A DNA stretch of 64,000 nt from an uncultured Rhodospirillales bacterium (GTDB lineage: Bacteria > Pseudomonadota > Alphaproteobacteria > Azospirillales > Azospirillaceae): contig CAIXKV010000268.1 in assembly GCA_903920145.1 (NCBI GenBank), positions 1 to 64,000 on the forward strand, written 5' to 3'. Below the pieces are notes generated by a model. It had not been told where the DNA came from, did not search any database, and saw only the letters and a program-made list of their open reading frames with translations. This document shows, piece after piece, positions 8,794 through 55,971 of this stretch. Position 1 is the stretch's first letter. Every line of letters starts with the position of its first letter. The position numbers and the translations under genes are program-made.

Positions 8794-8889
8794 TATCGGC
8801 TATTTGTATGCAATGAAATCTTTCCTTGACCTTCTGCGGCGCAAAGGATACCCGTGCTGTGTGCTTTTCGCGACAGTGGGGGTGGAATT

Positions 8890-10170
8890 ATGGCGAATTC
8901 AGAGGCAGGCATTACAAAATTAAGCAGTTTGACCAAATCGCTTTGGTTCCTCCTGCCGGTAGTGGTGGCGTTGTGCATTCTGCTGGTTGGGATATTGGCG
9001 AGAATCACACCTCTATCTCATCTGGGGGAAATGGGGGCCGCTTCGGTTGCTTTTGCCGTTTACGTTGTCATTAGCTTGGCGTTGGCCTGTGTGCCGATTT
9101 TGATCAGTCATGTCCAAACCACCACCAGAGATCGCGAGAAAGCAAAGCTAGAAAGCCTAGAAGGCCATAGTGTCGCTAATACCATGTATTACCAAAAAGC
9201 ATTGGCATCATTATGGGCGATACGTCCGGCCCAGATCAATAATTCTGATTATACGGTGCCCATTATAACGTTTTGGATGACGTTATTTTTCGGCTGGATG
9301 TTCGTTATGGCCGGAGTTTTTTGGGACTTCACCGTCAAGAATGTTATTTTAGGAGGAATTTCACTGCAACAAGGGGCGGCCTCAGAGGTTGCATCTTATC
9401 AGATTGGCACCTATATTTGCATGTCGGCTGGATTTATAAGTTGTTATATTTATGTAATTGTTCGGCTTTTGGATAGAATTAATAACAATGATATTTATCC
9501 GATCACTTTTTACTATTATACAGTCAGATTAATATCGGTCCTGATTATTGCTGCGGTGCTCCGGCATACATTGAAAGTGACGGATGTTAATGTTCTTGAT
9601 ACTTCGAACGCCTTGGTGATCTTTGGATTTGCTGTCGGCTATGCTCCGGATCTGTTCTTTGCCTATATCGTTGGGAAAGCTTTGGAATTGATAAAGCAAT
9701 CCGGGACGTCCCGTGTCCCGGATCGCTCTACGGTTCCGACAGAGATGCCGTTATTGATGATTGAGGGGTTATCAAAGGGTAAAATTGATCGTCTGAACGA
9801 GTTGTCCATCGACAGCGCGCAGGTTTTAGGCTGTCAGAACCCCTTTTCGATATGGCCTCGTTTGCCCTACGATTTGGGCCTAGTCGTGGATTGGATCGCA
9901 CAAGCGATGCTATACGCACTTGTTAAAGAAACAATATTGAAAAACTTGCGAGAAAAGCTAGTCACTGATATTTTTGATTTCTATGAACGATTATTAGACA
10001 AAGAAACTCGTCCTCAGATTTGCGCTGTTATTGGAATTGATGCGAACAGTGCCTGTGGTTTAATTCATCAATTGGAAAATGATCAATCTTTCCTGGCTTT
10101 GTTGGAGGTTCGAACGGCCTTGCAGCCGTCGGCCAAGCCCGCTAGGCCCGCTCATACCGACGAGCCATGA
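8890..10170 (+). CDS. Hypothetical six-span membrane protein with C-terminal helical domain
   Basis: A 426-residue protein from the ATG at 8890 (upstream GGGGGTGGA). It has six hydrophobic segments at about residues 17-38, 52-76, 126-148, 172-197, 213-235 and 245-268. A soluble C-terminal region of about 150 residues begins with MIEGLSKGKIDRLNELSID, which looks like a helix-hairpin-helix/SAM-type oligomerisation module, followed by LPYDLGLVVDWIAQA. I do not recognise the family. The gene is richer in A+T (many ATT, TTA, TAT codons) than both neighbours, which suggests acquisition. Its final codons (H-T-D-E-P) match the palindromic module of the local repeat family. Confidence 0.7.
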   Translation: MANSEAGITKLSSLTKSLWFLLPVVVALCILLVGILARITPLSHLGEMGAASVAFAVYVVISLALACVPILISHVQTTTRDREKAKLESLEGHSVANTMYYQKALASLWAIRPAQINNSDYTVPIITFWMTLFFGWMFVMAGVFWDFTVKNVILGGISLQQGAASEVASYQIGTYICMSAGFISCYIYVIVRLLDRINNNDIYPITFYYYTVRLISVLIIAAVLRHTLKVTDVNVLDTSNALVIFGFAVGYAPDLFFAYIVGKALELIKQSGTSRVPDRSTVPTEMPLLMIEGLSKGKIDRLNELSIDSAQVLGCQNPFSIWPRLPYDLGLVVDWIAQAMLYALVKETILKNLREKLVTDIFDFYERLLDKETRPQICAVIGIDANSACGLIHQLENDQSFLALLEVRTALQPSAKPARPAHTDEP

Positions 10171-10210
10171 CGAATAGTACCATCGAGCCTGGATGGGATT
10201 CCTCGGCGCT
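10150..10210. repeat. Degenerate mosaic repeat over the 3' end of the membrane-protein gene
   Basis: ATACCGACGAGCCATGAC (10154-10171) matches the half-module ATACCGGCGRSYCATGAC seen elsewhere. CCATCGAGCCTGGATGGG, just after it, matches CCATCGAGCCTTGATGGG at 22799. The remainder is eroded. Confidence 0.5.
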
Positions 10211-10299
10211 GTCGCCGTGAGCCCCTGCGGTTTGGCTTTGCAGGAGCAGATCGCTCCGGTATGGTGGGGGCCTTGCTGGTTGAAAATAGGATCAAACGC

Positions 10300-10851
10300 A
10301 TGTCGCGCTTGCTGCGTTTAGTGATGGCGACCCTGCTGGGTATCCTTTTGTGCGGGGGGGAGGCCCTGGCGTTGGAACCGGAAAACACACTGTATCTTGA
10401 CCTGAAAGATGGTCGAGTGGTCATCGAGATGCGCCCTGATTTGGCGCCGAATCATGTGGCCCGGATCAAGGAGCTGGTGCGGCAGGGCTTTTATGACGGC
10501 CTGTTGTTCCATCGCGTGATTCCTGGCTTTATGGCTCAGACCGGCGACCCGCGCGGCGATGGCACGGGGGGTTCGGGCAAGAAGCTTAAGGCCGAGTTTT
10601 CCTCGGAGCCGCATGTTCGCGGCACCTTGTCCATGGCGCGGGCTCAGAATCCGGACAGCGCCGACAGCCAATTCTTTATCTGCTTCGAAGCCGCTCCCTT
10701 CTTGGATCGTCAGTACACGGTGTGGGGTAAGGTGGTGTCGGGCATGGAATTTGTTGACGCCATCAAGAAGGGCTCGGCGAGCAACAATGGTGCGGTCTCC
10801 AATCCTGACCGGATCATCAAAATGCAGGTCGCGGCTGACGTAAAAGAGTAA
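10300..10851 (+). CDS. Peptidyl-prolyl cis-trans isomerase, cyclophilin type, exported
   Basis: A 183-residue cyclophilin that catalyses proline isomerisation during protein folding. An N-terminal signal peptide (about residues 1-25, ending A-L-A-L-E) points to the periplasm. Cyclophilin signatures include LFHRVIPGFMAQTGDP near residue 81, with the catalytic Arg in HRV, MARAQNPDSADSQFFI near 113 and the DRQYTVWGKV loop near 143. ATG 10300, with TAGGA upstream, gives a proper signal peptide. A start at 10261 would put 13 extra residues before it. A strong hairpin follows the stop. Confidence 0.93.
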   Translation: MSRLLRLVMATLLGILLCGGEALALEPENTLYLDLKDGRVVIEMRPDLAPNHVARIKELVRQGFYDGLLFHRVIPGFMAQTGDPRGDGTGGSGKKLKAEFSSEPHVRGTLSMARAQNPDSADSQFFICFEAAPFLDRQYTVWGKVVSGMEFVDAIKKGSASNNGAVSNPDRIIKMQVAADVKE

Positions 10852-10878
10852 GGCCGGGACCATTGCTGCTGTGAGAAC

Positions 10879-10912
10879 AAGGCCCGCCGATGGGAAGCCG
10901 TCGGCGGGCCTT
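10879..10912 (+). terminator. Strong hairpin terminator after the cyclophilin gene
   Basis: Perfect 12-bp stem AAGGCCCGCCGA (10879-10890) and TCGGCGGGCCTT (10901-10912) with a 10-nt loop, 27 bp after the stop. There is no long T-run, so the mechanism is uncertain. It lies immediately before a mosaic repeat that adds another hairpin. Confidence 0.7.
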
Positions 10913-10926
10913 GGTGTGTGTCAGAC

Positions 10927-11056
10927 CATCGGACCTTGATGGTGACTCATCAAGGCTGCCCTCAGACGCCGGGCCGTTTTAATGGGTCAACATTAAAGCT
11001 TGATTATGATACGTCGCCGGTTCGGGCTGCGACGGCTCGGCGCCTGAGAAGGGCTT
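10927..11056. repeat. Mosaic repeat with two hairpins
   Basis: Hairpin CCTTGATG-GTGACT-CATCAAGG at 10934-10955, then CTGCCCTCAGACGCCGGGCC. A second hairpin, TTTAATG-GGTCAA-CATTAAA (10978-10997), is followed by ACGTCGCCGG near 11011. It separates the cyclophilin from the convergent cold-shock gene and could end transcription from both. Confidence 0.8.
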
Positions 11057-11145
11057 CTCCCCAAAAAACAACCGCCGCCGTCCCAGGCGACTGGAACGGC
11101 GGCGGCTGCATCTCAAACTATGACCCGATCAATGGCGACGAAGCG

Positions 11146-11808
11146 TCAGCCATCAACCGTGATCGAAACGGCTTCGCGTCCCTTTGGGGTATCAACGATG
11201 CGCATCGACACCCGCTGGCCTTCGGCCAGACGAGTCAGCCCTGCCGTGCCCAGAACCGAAGCATGGATGAACACATCCTTGCCGCCGTCCTCGCCCGCGA
11301 TGAAGCCGAAGCCCTTGCTTTCGTTGAACCACTTGACGGTTCCAGCCATCTCCGTCGCACTTCCGGTATCGGTCGGGCGACGGGGTGGCCGGGCAACGCC
11401 CCGGCTGGCGCTCCGGTCAGGCGCGGCCCCGGCTCCACTGTCGTCAACCTCCAGGACGCGCGTGACCTGGCGGCCTTTGGCGCCCTGGCCAACCACGACC
11501 GAAAGCTTTGCCCCGGCGGCCACCGAGTCGTGACCTGCGGACTGCAAAGCCCCAACATGGAGGAAGGCGTCTCCGGTGCCGTCAGCCAGCTCGACGAAGC
11601 CAAAGCCCTTATCGGACTTGAACCACTTCACCGTGGCGTCAACTGCCGGCCCATCTGCCGGTGCCGGATCTCTCGAAAACCCACTCGTAGGACGGGGCGC
11701 CGGACGGCTGCTGCTGCTATTGCTGCTGCCACTGTCTGGAACAAAGCCCCAATCGTCATCAAACCCGCGTCGTCTCGGGCCGCGGAAGCCCTTATCCTTG
11801 CGTATCAT
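11146..11808 (-). CDS. Two-domain cold-shock protein
   Basis: A 220-residue protein with two cold-shock (OB-fold) nucleic-acid-binding domains: residues about 58-122 (VKWFKSDKGFGFVEL, then DAFLHVGAL) and about 154-220 (VKWFNESKGFGFI, then DVFIHASVL). RNP1 (K-G-F-G-F) and RNP2 (V-F-I-H or A-F-L-H) are intact in both. The first 55 residues are basic and then Ser/Pro-rich, probably disordered. Tandem-CSD proteins are common in alphaproteobacteria. ATG 11808 starts a plausible basic N terminus; the frame is open far upstream, but that part has no domain. Probable role: RNA chaperone. Confidence 0.88.
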   Translation of the reverse strand: MIRKDKGFRGPRRRGFDDDWGFVPDSGSSNSSSSRPAPRPTSGFSRDPAPADGPAVDATVKWFKSDKGFGFVELADGTGDAFLHVGALQSAGHDSVAAGAKLSVVVGQGAKGRQVTRVLEVDDSGAGAAPDRSASRGVARPPRRPTDTGSATEMAGTVKWFNESKGFGFIAGEDGGKDVFIHASVLGTAGLTRLAEGQRVSMRIVDTPKGREAVSITVDG

Positions 11809-12248
11809 GCCTGCTCGTTTCCGCCCGTCGCCGCCGAATCCACTGTTTGCACCCCATCGCCAGAATGTCCCGCTTTGCCGCACCCCCGGCCTCGATTCCA
11901 GACCGTCGGTTCGGTGCGGTCGCGACCCAGGGTCGGGACATGACGACCCGCTCCCGCCGGCGCCCATCGCCGAACCCCAGAAATAACACCTTATCACGTT
12001 CCGGGCACGTGGGGAGTGTTCGTTGTGAAAAAAAGTGTGATCGGGGTCGAAAAAGGGGGCCGGGTGAGGGTCTCCAGGCTTGATCGCGGACTGTGGAAGG
12101 GGCTCTATGAAGGATGACGGCAGCCTTCGGTTGGCGCGGGGGCGCCGCGCTCGGTCGAATCGGGGCCGCAGCCACGGGGGCACCGTAACGGATCGAGACG
12201 ATCTGCGATTGGGGAGCTGTCCAGAAGAGACAGGCAGGAGAGAAAAGA
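11809..12248. other. Divergent intergenic region, cold-shock gene / NAD(P)H oxidoreductase
   Basis: 440 bp without a supported gene. A minus-strand frame is open throughout, continuous with the cold-shock gene, but its translation is low complexity and has no domain. cspA-type genes often have long 5' leaders, which could account for part of it (inference). A small inverted repeat (CTGTC...GACAG, about 12219-12235) lies just before the oxidoreductase ribosome-binding site GGAGAG. Confidence 0.4.
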
Positions 12249-12797
12249 ATGAAGACATTGGCCCTTGTTGCTCACCCCCGGATTTCGGAATCACGACTCC
12301 ATCGGGCGTGGGCGAATGCTCTGGATGATACCAGTCAGGTGACGGTGCGCAAGCTCTATACGTGCTATCCCTATTGGAAGATTGATGTCGTTGTTGAGCA
12401 GGCTTTGTTGGCTGAACACGATCGAGTGGTTCTTCAGTTCCCGTTTTATCTCTATGGCTGCCCGCCCCTGATGAAAAAGTGGTTGGATGACGTTTTGACC
12501 TTCCGGTGGGCCTACGGTCCCGGCGGGACAGCATTGCATGGGAAACAGCTTTTAATTGCAATATCTACGGGTGGGCCGTCCGATTCTTATGTGGCAGGGG
12601 GGTATCACAATTTCACTATTGATGAGCTTCTGGTTCCTTACCGTCAGATCGCCAATCTGACTGGATTTGGCTATTTGCGCCCTTACGTGTTTCATCGGGC
12701 GCGAACCGTTACCGATGCCGATATCGCTTCCGCTGCAACCGACTATGCCCATCATGTGTTGCGGCCCGATCTGGAGGTGTTGCCGGTTCGCCCCTGA
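12249..12797 (+). CDS. NAD(P)H-dependent oxidoreductase, flavodoxin-like (KefF/YabF type)
   Basis: A 182-residue flavodoxin-fold quinone reductase. LALVAHPRISESR at the N terminus is the FMN-phosphate loop, FPFYLYGCPPLMKKWLD (near residue 62) is the family signature, and FRWAYGPGG (near 82) and STGG (near 102) also fit. Such enzymes reduce quinones or act as ancillary subunits of Kef K+ efflux systems; no kef gene is visible nearby. ATG 12249 has CAGGAGAG upstream. Confident for family, not for substrate. Confidence 0.9.
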   Translation: MKTLALVAHPRISESRLHRAWANALDDTSQVTVRKLYTCYPYWKIDVVVEQALLAEHDRVVLQFPFYLYGCPPLMKKWLDDVLTFRWAYGPGGTALHGKQLLIAISTGGPSDSYVAGGYHNFTIDELLVPYRQIANLTGFGYLRPYVFHRARTVTDADIASAATDYAHHVLRPDLEVLPVRP

Positions 12798-12871
12798 GTT
12801 TGGGCCAGAGCTTTGGACCCAAGGTGGGGCCGGGGCACTGGGCTTGGACGTGATCACAGGGGAGGCGGAAG

Positions 12872-15022
12872 ATGGCGGGGGCTGGACGGCGTCTCCGGGT
12901 TGATATCGAGGCTCTCTGCGACGAGGCGCTTCGTCATCACGCCGAAGGTGAGCTTCAGGAGGCCGAACGGCTATGCCGGCGGATATTGGCGCTTGATCCA
13001 GATCAGGTGGAGATGCTCCATCTGCTCGGTATGATCGCCGCCGAGACTGGGCGCAGCGCCGAAGCGGTCGAGTGGATTGATCGCGCCATCGCCTTAAACG
13101 GCGAAATTCCAGCCTTTCACTATACCCTTGGCCGTGCTTTCGAGTTGGAAGGCAAACCGGCAGAGGCTCTTTTGAATTGGGGCAATGGGCTGCGCGCCGA
13201 AGGACGTTGGGCGGAAGCCGCAGATTGTTATTGGCGGGCGTTGGCGCTGGTGCCTGGATTGGCCGCAGGTTATGCCAATCTTGGGCACGTGGCGCTGGCC
13301 GAAGGAGATGCCGAAGGGGCGGTGGCCTATTATCGGCAAGCTTTGACCTTGCGGCCCGGTTATGCCGCTGCCGAGGCCGGGTTGGGCTATGGTTTGGCGG
13401 CGCTGGGGTTGTCGGGCGACGCGATCGAGCATATTCAACGGGCTTTCACCCTGGATCCGGCTAACGCTGAAGCCGCATCACGGCTGGGGGATATCTACCA
13501 TCAGTTGGGGGATTTTGACGAGGCCGTCGTCTGGTACAATCAGGCGTTGGCTCTGCGCCCCGCTCTGCCCATGGCTCATGATGGCCTTGGTCATGTCCTA
13601 GCGGATCGGGGTTGGTGCGGTGCCGCTTCCGAGCATTTCAGGCAGGCCGTAATCGCTCGCCCTCAATGGGCCGAAGCCCACGCGGCGCTGGGGGCGAGCT
13701 TGCGGGACCAGGGGTTGGCCGAAGCGGCGGTGAAGTCGTTTCGGCGAGCCCTCGATCTTAGGCCAAATTTTGCCGAAGCCCATTCCCGGTTGTTGGAAGC
13801 TTTGCGGTTGGACGATCATGTCGACGCCACCGAACGGGCCGCCGAGGCGCGGCGGTTCGGGGCGCTGCTGGACGCCAGGAAAGCGGACAGCCCATCGCCC
13901 ATCGATTACCCCAATCAACGGGATCCCGAACGCCGTTTGCGGATTGGCTATCTGTCTCCTGACTTCCGTCGGTGTCTGACCGCCAGTTTTTTGGAACCAC
14001 CGCTGGCCAACCGGGATCGTCGCCAAGTCGAGGTGGTGTGTTACGCCGAAATCGCTCGACCGGACGTGATCACCAGTCATTTCAAAAAGATGGCCGATCA
14101 CTGGGTCGATACGGTGGGGTTGGATGACGATGCTTTGGCCGAACAGATTCGGGCGGATGGGGTTGATATTCTGGTGGATTGGGCCGGTCACCGACCGGGA
14201 AATCGTCTGCCGGTTTTCGTCCGGCGGCCTGCACCGATTCAATTGGCCTGGCCAGCGGACGGCGATACCACGGGGCTGACGGTCATGGATTGGCGGTTGA
14301 CCGATGCCGTGATCGAGCCCGAAGGGGCCGCCGACCTGCTGTCCACCGAGCGGCTGGTCCGTCTGCCTCACGGATGCCGATGCTGGCAACCGCCAATCGA
14401 TGATCCGGTATCGACCACGATGGACCTCGTGGGGCCGGTGACTTTTGGGTCTTTTGCGCCCCTGGCGGGATTGTCGCCCAATGTGATTGCTGTTTGGGCC
14501 GAAGTTCTGCGACGTTTGCCGGTTGCCCGGTTACGGCTGGGGAACCGGGCGTTGGGCGACCCTTTGGTCGCGACAGCGGTGCGGGAGCGTTTTGGAAGTC
14601 ATGGCATCGCCTCAGGACGGCTTGATCTGGTCCGTTCGTCCTCCGATTCGGGCGCTCGGCGGACGCTCCTCAGTCGGGTTGACGTGGTCCTGGACATGTT
14701 TCCATGTTCGGCACCGGCAGCGCTCTGCGAGGCACTCTGGATGGGGGTGCCAGTGGTAACGCTGGTGGGAGAAGGGCCGGCGGGTCGCGCAGGCGCCAGC
14801 CTGCTGGCTCGAGCCGGATTCAAGGCCCTGATCGCGGAAACGCAAGCCCGCTATGTGGAATTGGCTCTTTCTTTGGCCACCAACCCAACAGCCAGAGACA
14901 ACTTCCGACGGGCTGCACGCGCCCGCCTCGTCACCTCACCCCTGTGTGACGGTCTCGGTTTAGCCCGCCTCGTCGAGACCGCCTATCGGGCGTTATGGCG
15001 CCAGTGGTGCCTTGGAGGGTGA
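12872..15022 (+). CDS. TPR protein with SPINDLY/O-GlcNAc-transferase-like domain (substituted active-site positions)
   Basis: A 716-residue protein. Residues about 10-330 form eight to nine TPR repeats; residues about 350-716 are a glycosyltransferase-41 (OGT/SPINDLY) domain, with RIGYLSPDF near 360, GNRLPVFVRRPAPIQ near 446 and EALWMGVPVVTL near 620. Several positions expected for nucleotide-sugar binding differ. The His after SPDFRR is Cys368, the Lys of the NNLAKL-type motif is Gly533, and the Gly-Thr-Thr triplet is Pro615-Ala616-Ala617. WLGYPGTTGL is replaced by WPADGDTTGL. It may be inactive or use another donor. The 3' end overlaps the convergent coiled-coil gene by 30 bp. Confidence 0.88.
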   Translation: MAGAGRRLRVDIEALCDEALRHHAEGELQEAERLCRRILALDPDQVEMLHLLGMIAAETGRSAEAVEWIDRAIALNGEIPAFHYTLGRAFELEGKPAEALLNWGNGLRAEGRWAEAADCYWRALALVPGLAAGYANLGHVALAEGDAEGAVAYYRQALTLRPGYAAAEAGLGYGLAALGLSGDAIEHIQRAFTLDPANAEAASRLGDIYHQLGDFDEAVVWYNQALALRPALPMAHDGLGHVLADRGWCGAASEHFRQAVIARPQWAEAHAALGASLRDQGLAEAAVKSFRRALDLRPNFAEAHSRLLEALRLDDHVDATERAAEARRFGALLDARKADSPSPIDYPNQRDPERRLRIGYLSPDFRRCLTASFLEPPLANRDRRQVEVVCYAEIARPDVITSHFKKMADHWVDTVGLDDDALAEQIRADGVDILVDWAGHRPGNRLPVFVRRPAPIQLAWPADGDTTGLTVMDWRLTDAVIEPEGAADLLSTERLVRLPHGCRCWQPPIDDPVSTTMDLVGPVTFGSFAPLAGLSPNVIAVWAEVLRRLPVARLRLGNRALGDPLVATAVRERFGSHGIASGRLDLVRSSSDSGARRTLLSRVDVVLDMFPCSAPAALCEALWMGVPVVTLVGEGPAGRAGASLLARAGFKALIAETQARYVELALSLATNPTARDNFRRAARARLVTSPLCDGLGLARLVETAYRALWRQWCLGG

Positions 15023-52288: not shown

Positions 52289-52444
52289 GCACGCCCGCCC
52301 GATTGTTGGTTCTGTCCGACTCGAGGCGCCAATCTTATCTCCAAAACCCCTATTTCCGACGCCTTCTAACTAACCAAAGTCCTCCTCTTTTTTTCGTTAA
52401 CAGCGCCTTTATTTTTGAAGAAAGTCGCTTGGGTTGGTTTGGTC

Positions 52445-54136
52445 TCAGGCTTGCAGGCGTTCGATCAGGTCGCCCCGCCGGAAGGTTGCGGAGAGTTGCT
52501 GCATGGAGGGCGGTTCAACATAGAAGCTGTCCAGGGCTCTTTCAATATCTTTGGTTGCCGTTAAGAAATACTGTTCGCCATTTTGATCGATCAGAGCCTT
52601 CGCCTGAGAAAAGGTCTGGTGGTTGAGGCCGGCTAGCGAAACCTTCAAGTCCTGTAATAAATGATGCCCCATGCGCATGGCGATGAAACAGGAAGCGTAA
52701 GGAACACAGTAGGAATCATTGGGTTCTGGCCGGCGGCGGTGGTTTTCGGCGATACGATATAGCAAGACAGCAATGATGAGCTGGGCGGCATTGAGGGTCT
52801 CTGTAAATATTTTACTATATAATTTTCCGAAATGTTCCCGTGTGTAGAATTTAGCCTGGTGTGGGGCCTCTCTCCAAACCGCCAAAACCGCTTCAGCCGC
52901 CGTTCCCGAGGTGATGTCGGTTGATTTCAGGGGACCATCGGCGCGTTTACGGCGATAGGTATAGCCAAAATGCTGGAGGCTCATCTCCAGGCTTCGCTGT
53001 TTTTCATCATTGGAAAGGAGGTCTTTTAAATCGACTGGATTTTGGCTGTTGGTCGCATGGGTAATTTGCCAGACAATATTTTCATTATCTTTCGGTAATT
53101 TATAAATTCGGACCAGGACGCTGGCGTCAATGAGTGGTACGAGTTCGAATGGGCTGTGCATATCTTGCGTTGTCCGTTCCCATTCCTCAAAAGTCCTGAG
53201 AATGGTCATGCAGGTTTGGCCACCATTGACGATCTGTAGGTTTTCCACTCGAACCTGATAATCGCTATTTTGTAGCCCATTATATGAAAAATCGTTGCAG
53301 ATAAAAGTGATGCCATTGTTGAAAAAATAAAAATTAGCAGAATTTGAAACCAATGTGTTGCGGATACCCTCATTGACTCGATTGTTATGAAGGCCAAGGT
53401 AGCGGCGGATATTTCGCTCCAGCAATCGATCGCCGTTCTTTTTCATGAGGGCCGCAATTTCCGTTACGGCCATTCGGCCAACGCAAATGCGGCTGTAATT
53501 CATATCCTCGACGATGGCCTTCCCGGTGAATCTCAGCATTTCATCGATCGGCTTAAATCGTTGCAGAATATGAATCAACACATCATGATTGACATGCTGC
53601 CATGTCACCCGATCCCCAAATTGGGCTCTGCTGATGACCTCTTCGCCTGATTTGTTCCATTTCAGGCCGTTATTGCAAGCGATAACGCGGACGCGAGGAA
53701 ACACTCCGTCGCGAATCATGGAGCGGGCGGCTTCCACTTTGATCTTCAGACGTTTGTTGATGTCTTCCAGGGCGGATGAAGGATCAAAAATATGACGAAC
53801 AGCATTGACCATTGCCTCAAGGGCGGTGGCTTCAAATTCAGAACGGCCTTCGAGGGCCTTTTTATATTTTCCTTGAAACAGAGTGACGGTGAATTCACCA
53901 TCGACCTCTTCGGTCATATGCATGGCGTCCACGCCAAAGTCACCACCCCCTTCGGTCAGGCAATCGAAGGCTTCATCAATGTCCAGGTCCAGCATGACCT
54001 TGACGCACAGATAGAGGAAGGACAGGGATTTCAGGCGATCTGCGTCCCGAATATGCAGTTCGTGATCAGCCCGTGCGCGGATTTCGTCCTGAATGCCTTC
54101 AAGGCGCTGGTCGATAATCGAGGCGTTGATATTCAT
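52445..54136 (-). CDS. AIPR-family protein (abortive infection / phage resistance)
   Basis: A 563-residue protein of the AIPR family (Pfam PF10592). Signatures: ERNIRRYLG (241-249), FYFFNNGITF (269-278) and IVNGGQTCMTI (302-312). The N-terminal 150 residues look like a restriction-endonuclease fold: GGGDFGVDA with Asp70, then LFQGKYK with Gln88 and Lys90, a PD-(D/E)xK-like triad, so it may be a nuclease. It is more A+T-rich than its neighbours and stands alone between the kinase gene and nadE; no methylase or other defence gene adjoins. ATG 54136. A weak promoter (ATGACA...TAATGT) overlaps the nadE stop. Confidence 0.85.
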   Translation of the reverse strand: MNINASIIDQRLEGIQDEIRARADHELHIRDADRLKSLSFLYLCVKVMLDLDIDEAFDCLTEGGGDFGVDAMHMTEEVDGEFTVTLFQGKYKKALEGRSEFEATALEAMVNAVRHIFDPSSALEDINKRLKIKVEAARSMIRDGVFPRVRVIACNNGLKWNKSGEEVISRAQFGDRVTWQHVNHDVLIHILQRFKPIDEMLRFTGKAIVEDMNYSRICVGRMAVTEIAALMKKNGDRLLERNIRRYLGLHNNRVNEGIRNTLVSNSANFYFFNNGITFICNDFSYNGLQNSDYQVRVENLQIVNGGQTCMTILRTFEEWERTTQDMHSPFELVPLIDASVLVRIYKLPKDNENIVWQITHATNSQNPVDLKDLLSNDEKQRSLEMSLQHFGYTYRRKRADGPLKSTDITSGTAAEAVLAVWREAPHQAKFYTREHFGKLYSKIFTETLNAAQLIIAVLLYRIAENHRRRPEPNDSYCVPYASCFIAMRMGHHLLQDLKVSLAGLNHQTFSQAKALIDQNGEQYFLTATKDIERALDSFYVEPPSMQQLSATFRRGDLIERLQA

Positions 54137-54202
54137 ATCGATGCATCCCGAATCTGTGCCGCGTTGAGAGGCCGTCGGACATTATCCGGCTCTACAGTGT
54201 TG

Positions 54203-55870
54203 TCATGCCAGCACGGACAGAAAACGGTTGGTGATGGGGTAGCGACGGTCTTTGCCAAAGCCGCGCCGGGTGATCTTGACGCCGGGGGGGGCTTGGCGGC
54301 GTTTGTATTCGGCACGGTCGAGCATATGCCAAACGCGATTCACAATGTCCGAATCATGACCGCGCGCAACGATTTCGGCTGATCCCATCTCGTGCTCGAT
54401 CAGGCATTCCAGAATATCATCAAGGATATCGTAGGGGGGCAGCGTGTCTTGATCGGTTTGGTCATGCTTGAGTTCGGCGGTCGGCGGTTTGGTTAACACC
54501 CGTTCCGGGACCACGCGACCGGCGGGGCCTTCGGCGCCATCCGGCAGGTTCAGGTTGCGCCAGCGGGCCAGCTTGAACACTGTGGTTTTGTAAACATCCT
54601 TCAGAACCGAATATCCACCGCACATGTCGCCATACAAGGTGGCGTAGCCCACGGACATTTCCGATTTATTGCCAGTGGATAGAACCATGGCGCCGAATTT
54701 ATTGGACAGCGCCATCAACAGCATGCCGCGCAGGCGCGATTGGATATTCTCTTCGGTGATATCGGCGTCGGTTCCAGCGAACACCGGAGCCAGCACGCTG
54801 CCAAAGGCGGTCATGACGGGTTCGATAGACAGGGTGTCGAGCTTGCACCCCAGCAGGTTCGAGGCTTCGATGGCGTCTTCGGTGCTTTCACTCGAGGTGT
54901 AGGGCGAGGGCATGAGAACGGCGTGGACGCGATCCGCACCCAGAGCATCCACCGCCACGGCGGCCGTCAAGGCGCTGTCGATGCCTCCTGACATGCCGAG
55001 CAAGATGCCTGGAAAGCGATTCTTGTTCACATAATCACGGAGACCAACCATCATGGCCTGATAGATCGCGGCAAGGTCGGTGATCGGAGAGGCCTGTTCG
55101 CTGTCCAAGCATAGCCAGTGCCGATTCGCCCCGCGTTGCCAGCGGGTAACCAGCAAATATTCGCAGAACGCGGGCGCTTGGGCCACCTTCTCCCGGTCGG
55201 CGCCGACAACGAACGAAGCGCCGTCGAACACCAGTTCATCTTGGCCGCCAACCTGATTGACATAGAGCAAGGGCAGGCCGGTTTCGGCGACCCGCTGGCC
55301 GGCCAGATCGACCCGAACGCCGGCCTTATCCACTTCGAACGGGCTGCCGTTGATCACCACCAAAAGCTCGGCGCCGCCCTCGGCCAAAGTCTGGGTAGCC
55401 GTGGGGGTCCACATATCCTCGCAGATCATCACACCCAGCCGCATACCGCGAAAGGGGATCGGCTCGGGGGGAGGGCCAGCGACAAAAACACGCTTTTCAT
55501 CGAAGACACCGTAATTCGGCAGGTCAGATTTCAGCCGAATGGCAGCGATTCGCCCCATGTCCAACAACAGAACCGCATTGTAAAGCTGCCCAGCCAGCCG
55601 CCACGGTGTGCCCAGCAGCATCGCCGGCCCACCATCGGCGGTTTCTGCCGCCAGAGCCGTGACCGACTGTTCCACAAGGTCCAGCACCAGCGGCTTCAAG
55701 ACCAGATCTTCGGGCGGGTACCCGGTTGATACCAATTCGGGGAATACCACCAAATCCGCGCCGCGTTGCGCCGCCCCGGCTCGAGCGTCACGCACGCGGT
55801 CGAGATTGGCGCGGATGGCGCCAACGGTGGGATTGATTTGGGCAAGCGCGATGGTCAGATGATCGGTCAT
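54203..55870 (-). CDS. nadE: NAD+ synthase, glutamine-dependent
   Basis: A 555-residue two-domain enzyme converting nicotinate adenine dinucleotide to NAD+. The N-terminal nitrilase-type glutaminase has Glu in VFPELVSTGYPPEDL (near residue 42), Lys in RLKSDLPNYGVFDE and Cys in GVMICEDMW (near 149). The C-terminal synthetase has P-loop GMSGGIDSAL (near 293), LSTGNKSEMSVGY and GDMCGGYSVLKDVYKT. ATG 55870 (MTDHLTIAL) was selected over an upstream frame extension. It is last in a HAD-AsmA-ATP12-nadE run, separated from ATP12 by 101 bp. Confidence 0.96.
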   Translation of the reverse strand: MTDHLTIALAQINPTVGAIRANLDRVRDARAGAAQRGADLVVFPELVSTGYPPEDLVLKPLVLDLVEQSVTALAAETADGGPAMLLGTPWRLAGQLYNAVLLLDMGRIAAIRLKSDLPNYGVFDEKRVFVAGPPPEPIPFRGMRLGVMICEDMWTPTATQTLAEGGAELLVVINGSPFEVDKAGVRVDLAGQRVAETGLPLLYVNQVGGQDELVFDGASFVVGADREKVAQAPAFCEYLLVTRWQRGANRHWLCLDSEQASPITDLAAIYQAMMVGLRDYVNKNRFPGILLGMSGGIDSALTAAVAVDALGADRVHAVLMPSPYTSSESTEDAIEASNLLGCKLDTLSIEPVMTAFGSVLAPVFAGTDADITEENIQSRLRGMLLMALSNKFGAMVLSTGNKSEMSVGYATLYGDMCGGYSVLKDVYKTTVFKLARWRNLNLPDGAEGPAGRVVPERVLTKPPTAELKHDQTDQDTLPPYDILDDILECLIEHEMGSAEIVARGHDSDIVNRVWHMLDRAEYKRRQAPPGVKITRRGFGKDRRYPITNRFLSVLA

Positions 55871-55971
55871 GGCACGACTAAAAGATCGGGGTTTACGGAA
55901 GAGCACCGACAGCTTACCGCAACATCCCTCGGGTCCGGCAATATTATCGGTGATGTGTTGGCGGGGGGCCT

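Follow-up and report, generated by a model that had tools for sequence, protein, structure and literature searches.

What does an AIPR gene do when it stands alone among housekeeping genes, and does it act by itself or together with the giant kinase encoded next to it? The question is raised by a 64,000-nucleotide stretch of DNA from an uncultured Rhodospirillales bacterium (hereafter the window), in which a sequence-only reading had recognized such a gene, suspected a nuclease domain at the N-terminus of its product and considered a functional link with the kinase conceivable. AIPR genes are widely annotated as phage-resistance proteins and, to our knowledge, their mechanism is not known.

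The gene call proved correct. The intact open reading frame encodes a protein of 563 residues that matches the Pfam AIPR family (PF10592) over residues 239-510 (180.3 bits for a cut-off of 25, E 9.1e-53) and, over nearly its full length (residues 48-559), the PADLOC AbiU model PDLC02357 (E 2.1e-44), as an AbiU1-type protein does. It thus resembles AbiU (AbiU1) of Lactococcus both in this profile and in its AIPR core; AbiU is described, in the accessible part of the source, as a two-gene abiU1/abiU2 system (PMC3985639), whereas no abiU2 adjoins the window gene, which is flanked by nadE and the hybrid kinase. Likeness to MzaE of the Mza system is confined to a weak PADLOC match, whose AIPR core part corresponds to residues 229-384. 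The protein scores only 57.6 bits against the cut-off of 1050 of the NCBIfam MzaE equivalog NF041935, which places it outside Mza, and the other Mza genes are not adjacent. No further AIPR gene was found in the same genome, a draft of 269 contigs. We conclude that the window AIPR gene is unexceptional within a known, poorly understood defence family. The coordinates of the features are compiled in Table 1.

Table 1. Features of the window and of three related loci (positions in L029, L134 and L138 are those of the respective locus).
Feature	Coordinates	Strand	Basis and remarks
AIPR/AbiU-family gene	52445..54136	minus	intact ORF, 563 aa; PF10592 and PADLOC AbiU matches; single copy in genome
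Predicted PD-(D/E)XK nuclease domain, residues 1-193	53558..54136	minus	AF2 model; VIA-align matches FokI, MspJI, AF1548, HamA
Asp66 codon, GD-x-G-[IV]-D motif	53939-53941	minus	32/32 homologues
Asp70 codon, putative catalytic acid in same motif	53927..53929	minus	32/32 homologues
Gln88-x-Lys90 codons, putative catalytic QxK	53867..53875	minus	Q 31/32, K 31/32
AIPR core, residues 211-369; motifs FNNGIT, QIVNGGQT, TNSQNP	53030..53506	minus	ParB/sulfiredoxin-like predicted fold; VIA-align
nadE (NAD synthase with CN_hydrolase domain), upstream neighbour	54203..55906	minus	Pfam
Segment missing from homologous G001 flanks	52417..54202	minus	AIPR gene plus ~66 bp upstream and 28 bp downstream
Kinase upstream region common to G001, ~128 bp	52289..52416	minus	pairwise alignment
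Giant hybrid kinase, 2555 aa	44621..52288	minus	Pfam; orthologues in G001, G002, G003; judged functionally unrelated
PtuA-like ATPase and ~200-aa gene directly behind AIPR, L029	9182-11130		
PtuA-like ATPase and ~200-aa gene directly behind AIPR, L134	10790-12693		
Decayed BREX locus, L138 (G159)	9112-13390		intact AIPR, ATPase and 200-aa genes among remnants

The higher A+T content that had been noted for the gene was borne out, with a refinement. Its GC content is 49.0% versus 59.5% for the window, and its GC3 is 0.55, whereas 18 of the 19 other window genes measured range from 0.63 to 0.75. AIPR genes were also A+T-richer than their own flanks at 20 of 21 homologous loci (the exception, L021, has a flank of only 2.2 kb). 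A+T-richness thus characterizes the family as a whole and is not peculiar to the window copy. The gene that departs from the GC3 range is an ORF of 438 aa at 8854-10170, with 45% GC and the lowest GC3 (0.48) among the 20 window genes measured; it yielded no Pfam match at E 1e-12 and is possibly another foreign gene.

Relatives close to the window gene (45-69% identity) have a scattered occurrence, in Pseudomonadota and on cyanobacterial plasmids. One is carried by an Aeromonas plasmid typed as conjugative, beside recombinase genes, and others by Picosynechococcus plasmids, where a PIN toxin gene is the neighbour; a distant relative occurs in a Salmonella phage, where the record notes that it "prevents superinfection". 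In a tree of 30 rows, which leaves out the distant L145, L116 and L095 and in which the long branches L094 and L115 may be joined falsely, the window gene is placed, to clade level only, in a 12-row clade (99/99). This clade mixes recorded alpha-, beta-, gamma- and zetaproteobacteria with the Aeromonas plasmid, while the AIPR genes of three genomes of the same family (G012, G013 and G020) fall outside it. Such a patchy distribution indicates that the AIPR gene is horizontally spread.

Solitary position had been regarded as unusual for an AIPR gene, and for the present subfamily this view did not hold. Twenty other well-flanked loci of the subfamily were selected by hand from 42 AIPR loci, the minimum values being 39% identity, 500 aligned residues and 2.4 kb of flank on each side. 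Four of them lie in intact type I BREX loci (L025, L029, L093 and L134), one lies in the wreck of a BREX locus (L138), and the remaining 15 belong to neither group. In this subfamily, the common state is therefore a solitary copy set among housekeeping genes, which is no oddity. Such copies are found between prfB and lysS (L026) and beside rlmJ (L133), recQ (L143) or rsmI (L030). At L026 (9012-13269), the AIPR start codon overlaps the prfB stop codon, one gene having been inserted into a pair of housekeeping genes. At L030 (11918-15025), the solitary AIPR gene has as neighbour a gene whose 1035-aa product carries a ThsB-like TIR domain at its N-terminus.

Could the window gene be what is left of a BREX operon, an accessory carried in with a BREX system whose core was lost? 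Six relatives are located within type I BREX, directly after pglX (L093, L094, L115, L025, L029 and L134). PglX and PglZ matches flank the AIPR gene on its two sides in all six, and BrxL was seen in four; for three of these loci, the BREX assignment relies on tblastn searches that used proteins of L093 and L029. Among the BREX-embedded copies, the nearest ones (L025 and L029) belong to the same 12-row clade as the window gene, and the wreck in G159 provides an example of BREX decay around an AIPR gene. There, the AIPR gene is intact between a remnant of PglX (the C-terminal 23 residues) and fragments of PglZ (N-terminal 73 residues) and BrxL (C-terminal 54 residues) that almost adjoin each other. 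On the other side, we detected no remnant of PglX, PglZ, BrxL or PtuA/B-like genes in the flanks of the window gene, and no PglZ in its genome with model PDLC02566. An origin as a BREX leftover is thus rather doubtful. The intact copy in the decayed G159 locus, the one clear case of its kind, suggests that the AIPR gene works alone.

Some BREX-embedded copies have further companions. Behind the AIPR gene of L029 and of L134 stand an ATPase gene and then a gene of about 200 codons; the ATPase of L029 is recognized by PADLOC PtuA models, and the position of the ~200-aa gene leads us to infer that it is PtuB-like. The ~200-aa gene of L138 has no Pfam match, and L135 retains only a 56-residue fragment of it behind AIPR. 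The pair is possibly Septu-like and a further BREX cargo. According to the available part of PMC11341690, most pglX-pglZ intervals hold additional genes, some 5,000 of them lacking a recognized system, and homologues of BrxU are located between BREX genes, as are the relatives described here. PD-(D/E)XK enzymes are reported in the accessible text of PMC12839542 as the commonest BREX auxiliary effectors, which fits the BREX-embedded relatives but not the window copy, located outside any BREX locus; neither AIPR nor AbiU is named in the main text of that source as far as it is accessible. We found no description of AIPR inside BREX in the accessible main-text passages of the open-access literature.

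The suspected nuclease domain received support from both conservation and predicted structure. The pattern proposed from the window protein alone (Asp70 and Gln88-x-Lys90) is present, residues 66, 70, 88 and 90 being D, D, Q and K. In an alignment of the window protein with 31 homologues, from which the frame-interrupted L027 and L143 are absent, as they are from the tree, every protein has Asp66 and Asp70, all but one have Gln88 (Ser in L095) and all but one have Lys90 (Arg in the close homologue L022). We take the resulting GD-x-G-[IV]-D ... QxK pattern to resemble an Mrr-type PD-(D/E)XK signature. In a larger alignment of 59 rows, the signature is missing from four distant viral proteins (L181, L183, L189 and L202), and L166 is a fragment; most viral AIPR proteins keep it. 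An AlphaFold2 model built on 27 sequences reached a mean pLDDT of 86.2 but a pTM of 0.56, indicating that the individual domains are better defined than their relative arrangement. VIA-align superposed residues 14-193 of this model on FokI (Z 9.4, 3.5 A, 139 residues) and residues 1-193 on MspJI (Z 8.7, 3.4 A, 127 residues), both above the Z of 8 below which the program itself cautions that matches may be due to chance. The rows below these, several of which are also restriction-type nucleases, are AF1548 (Z 7.9), N.BspD6I, HamA (Z 7.0), Avs4 and EndoMS. No PDB entry was matched by the whole model at E 0.001 or better using Foldseek, and a profile search of the sequences of solved structures revealed no homologue (best E 0.39 with a 27-row profile). 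Conservation and predicted fold together back the interpretation that the N-terminus is a PD-(D/E)XK-type nuclease domain with a pattern shared across the family and a restriction-endonuclease-like predicted fold.

This interpretation differs from the AbiU1 proposal of 2012, in which AIPR would be an RNase or HEPN toxin that kills or stalls the infected cell. The accessible part of PMC3506569 states that AIPR has an N-terminal HEPN domain and links AbiU1/AIPR to DndB, as well as to restriction-modification loci. The HEPN families listed in the available part of PMC3710099 nevertheless include AbiU2 and not AbiU1/AIPR, and the N-terminal motif combined with an alpha/beta predicted fold, best matched by FokI and MspJI, is at odds with a HEPN domain. 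We consider an RNase toxin of this type improbable.

The fold of the AIPR core is less sure than that of the nuclease domain. VIA-align gave weak matches of residues 211-369 with SspE (Z 5.7), ParB-N (Z 5.3) and BrxU (Z 5.3). Folded alone (mean pLDDT 83.8), the core matched ParB-N (Z 5.2, 4.2 A, 110 residues) with the next row at Z 2.1, and Foldseek returned no PDB match at E 0.001 or better for this middle domain alone. The core, approximately residues 211-369, likely adopts a ParB/sulfiredoxin-like fold, according to these models. The window protein would then be comparable to GmrSD/BrxU and SspE as a nuclease protein with a predicted ParB-like module. It differs from GmrSD/BrxU in the nature and position of its nuclease, which is PD-(D/E)XK-like and N-terminal whereas theirs is a C-terminal HNH; Pfam detected AIPR only, and neither DUF262 nor DUF1524, in the window protein.

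We also analyzed how the gene is inserted among its neighbours. As previously described, it is alone among housekeeping genes. On its upstream side, nadE is followed by genes for ATP12, AsmA and a dihydrolipoamide-dehydrogenase-like protein, with sucB/sucA-like genes further out; on the downstream side, the hybrid kinase precedes a response regulator and clpA. In pairwise alignments, the upstream region of the kinase is homologous to G001 from window position 52416 on, and homology with G001 and G003 at the nadE end stops at 54207-54201, that is, at the nadE stop codon. These limits delineate a foreign piece of about 52417-54202 that contains the AIPR gene and almost nothing else. In G001, the kinase adjoins a GGDEF gene and nadE lies elsewhere, adjoining an FAD oxidoreductase-like gene (both neighbours named by eye from their translations), and the break in gene order between this genome and the window coincides with the AIPR segment. 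A gene located exactly at a synteny break of a 269-contig draft, between two genes found in unrelated places in G001, might owe its solitary position to misassembly. This is very improbable given that other solitary copies also occupy housekeeping neighbourhoods, such as prfB-AIPR-lysS, and that a single-copy gene offers no repeat inviting misjoining; a rearrangement seems likelier than an assembly fault.

We considered other regularities of the insertion sites. No conserved DNA cassette around the AIPR gene was apparent: inspection by eye of 21 loci disclosed neither shared non-coding DNA upstream or downstream of AIPR nor direct repeats at its ends, and a separate check for direct repeats on its flanks was also negative. 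Insertion just 3′ of housekeeping stop codons was dropped as a rule given the mixed orientations observed. No tRNA gene was found within the 64-kb window. In L092 (G013; 121-2674), the AIPR gene lies directly behind an ATP12 chaperone gene, and ATP12 is also two genes upstream of the window AIPR gene. This proximity is probably a coincidence, since of the 13 loci searched just the window and G001 have ATP12 next to nadE.

The neighbouring kinase is indeed downstream and on the same strand. Its description as a Ser/Thr-kinase/NTPase was incomplete: besides the Ser/Thr kinase and AAA_16 domains, the protein contains GAF, PAS, hybrid histidine kinase (HisKA/HATPase), receiver and Hpt domains. In genomes of the same genus, full-length orthologues are present in G001 (78% identity) and G003 (76%), and an orthologue of 60% identity in G002. 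A search at E 0.001 found no AIPR gene in G001 or G002, and in G003 only one that is 27% identical. The survey of co-occurrence that the sequence-only reading had called for gave a negative answer: none of the 42 other AIPR loci had a match nearby to the first 800 residues of the kinase, which comprise the kinase and ATPase part. These loci, 41 of them distinct (L144 is identical to L024), have flanks of 0 to ~14 kb, some being at contig edges, and include the partial L130 and L146 and the frame-interrupted L027 and L143. The main weight of the test is carried by the 20 well-flanked loci, all of which were negative. Histidine-kinase matches near four of the 42 (L026, L028, L095 and L142) were read, without formal test, as background, since these genomes contain many hybrid kinases (29 matches in the genome of the window itself). 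The ~128 bp upstream of the kinase are common to G001, and the kinase therefore probably has its own promoter.

Taken together, the lack of co-occurrence, the same-genus kinases without a close AIPR gene and the conserved upstream DNA of the kinase make a functional link very unlikely. A defence system made up of these two genes, with the kinase as sensor of infection and activator of the nuclease, would agree with the common strand, the 156 bp between the two genes and the matches of PADLOC defence-kinase models (PD-T4-6, mad6). Of the 2555 residues of the kinase, however, those matches extend over roughly residues 1-350 alone, many generic kinase models match as well, and on the evidence above such a system is extremely improbable.

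In our view, it is moderately probable that the gene was acquired horizontally and encodes an anti-phage nuclease of the AIPR/AbiU family that needs no partner, a PD-(D/E)XK effector gated by a ParB-like module. The N-terminal domain would be the effector, through Asp70 and Gln88-x-Lys90. The AIPR core, with its predicted ParB/sulfiredoxin-like fold, would probably bind a nucleotide or recognize foreign or modified DNA, and would hold the nuclease off until triggered. This division of labour would broadly be that of GmrSD/BrxU and SspE, which combine a ParB-like module with a nuclease. Upon infection, either phage DNA would be cut or, as an abortive response, host DNA. The interpretation as an anti-phage nuclease follows from the invariance of the motif and the two predicted folds, and from the BREX-embedded, plasmid and phage relatives, the mixed clade and the intact G159 copy. 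From these we infer nuclease activity, a DNA target, gating by nucleotide, protection against phages and the ability to protect as a stand-alone gene. Counted against it are the results of the sequence and Foldseek searches of solved structures, the weakness of the ParB-like match (Z 5.2-5.7), the substitution of Arg for Lys90 in L022 and the lack of an obvious ribosome-binding site directly upstream of the ORF, as judged by eye; the N-terminal HEPN RNase statement, in the accessible part of PMC3506569, would imply an RNA target.

A broader proposal, which we put forward only tentatively as a possibility, is that AIPR/AbiU1 proteins constitute a second, unrecognized class of stand-alone type IV-like restriction enzyme, whose N-terminal FokI/MspJI-like nuclease is controlled by a ParB-like module. 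Genes of this class might move singly into housekeeping loci and might also occupy the position of accessory genes in BREX, where they would be interchangeable with BrxU and would act as a second line against phages that escape BREX.

For the AIPR family, our analysis represents a useful but modest addition. The nuclease signature and the structural model argue against the older statement of an N-terminal HEPN RNase. The family-wide signature, the predicted ParB-like core and the copies in BREX loci and in the BREX wreck together lead to a concrete, testable mechanism, in which a ParB-like sensor would gate a nuclease.
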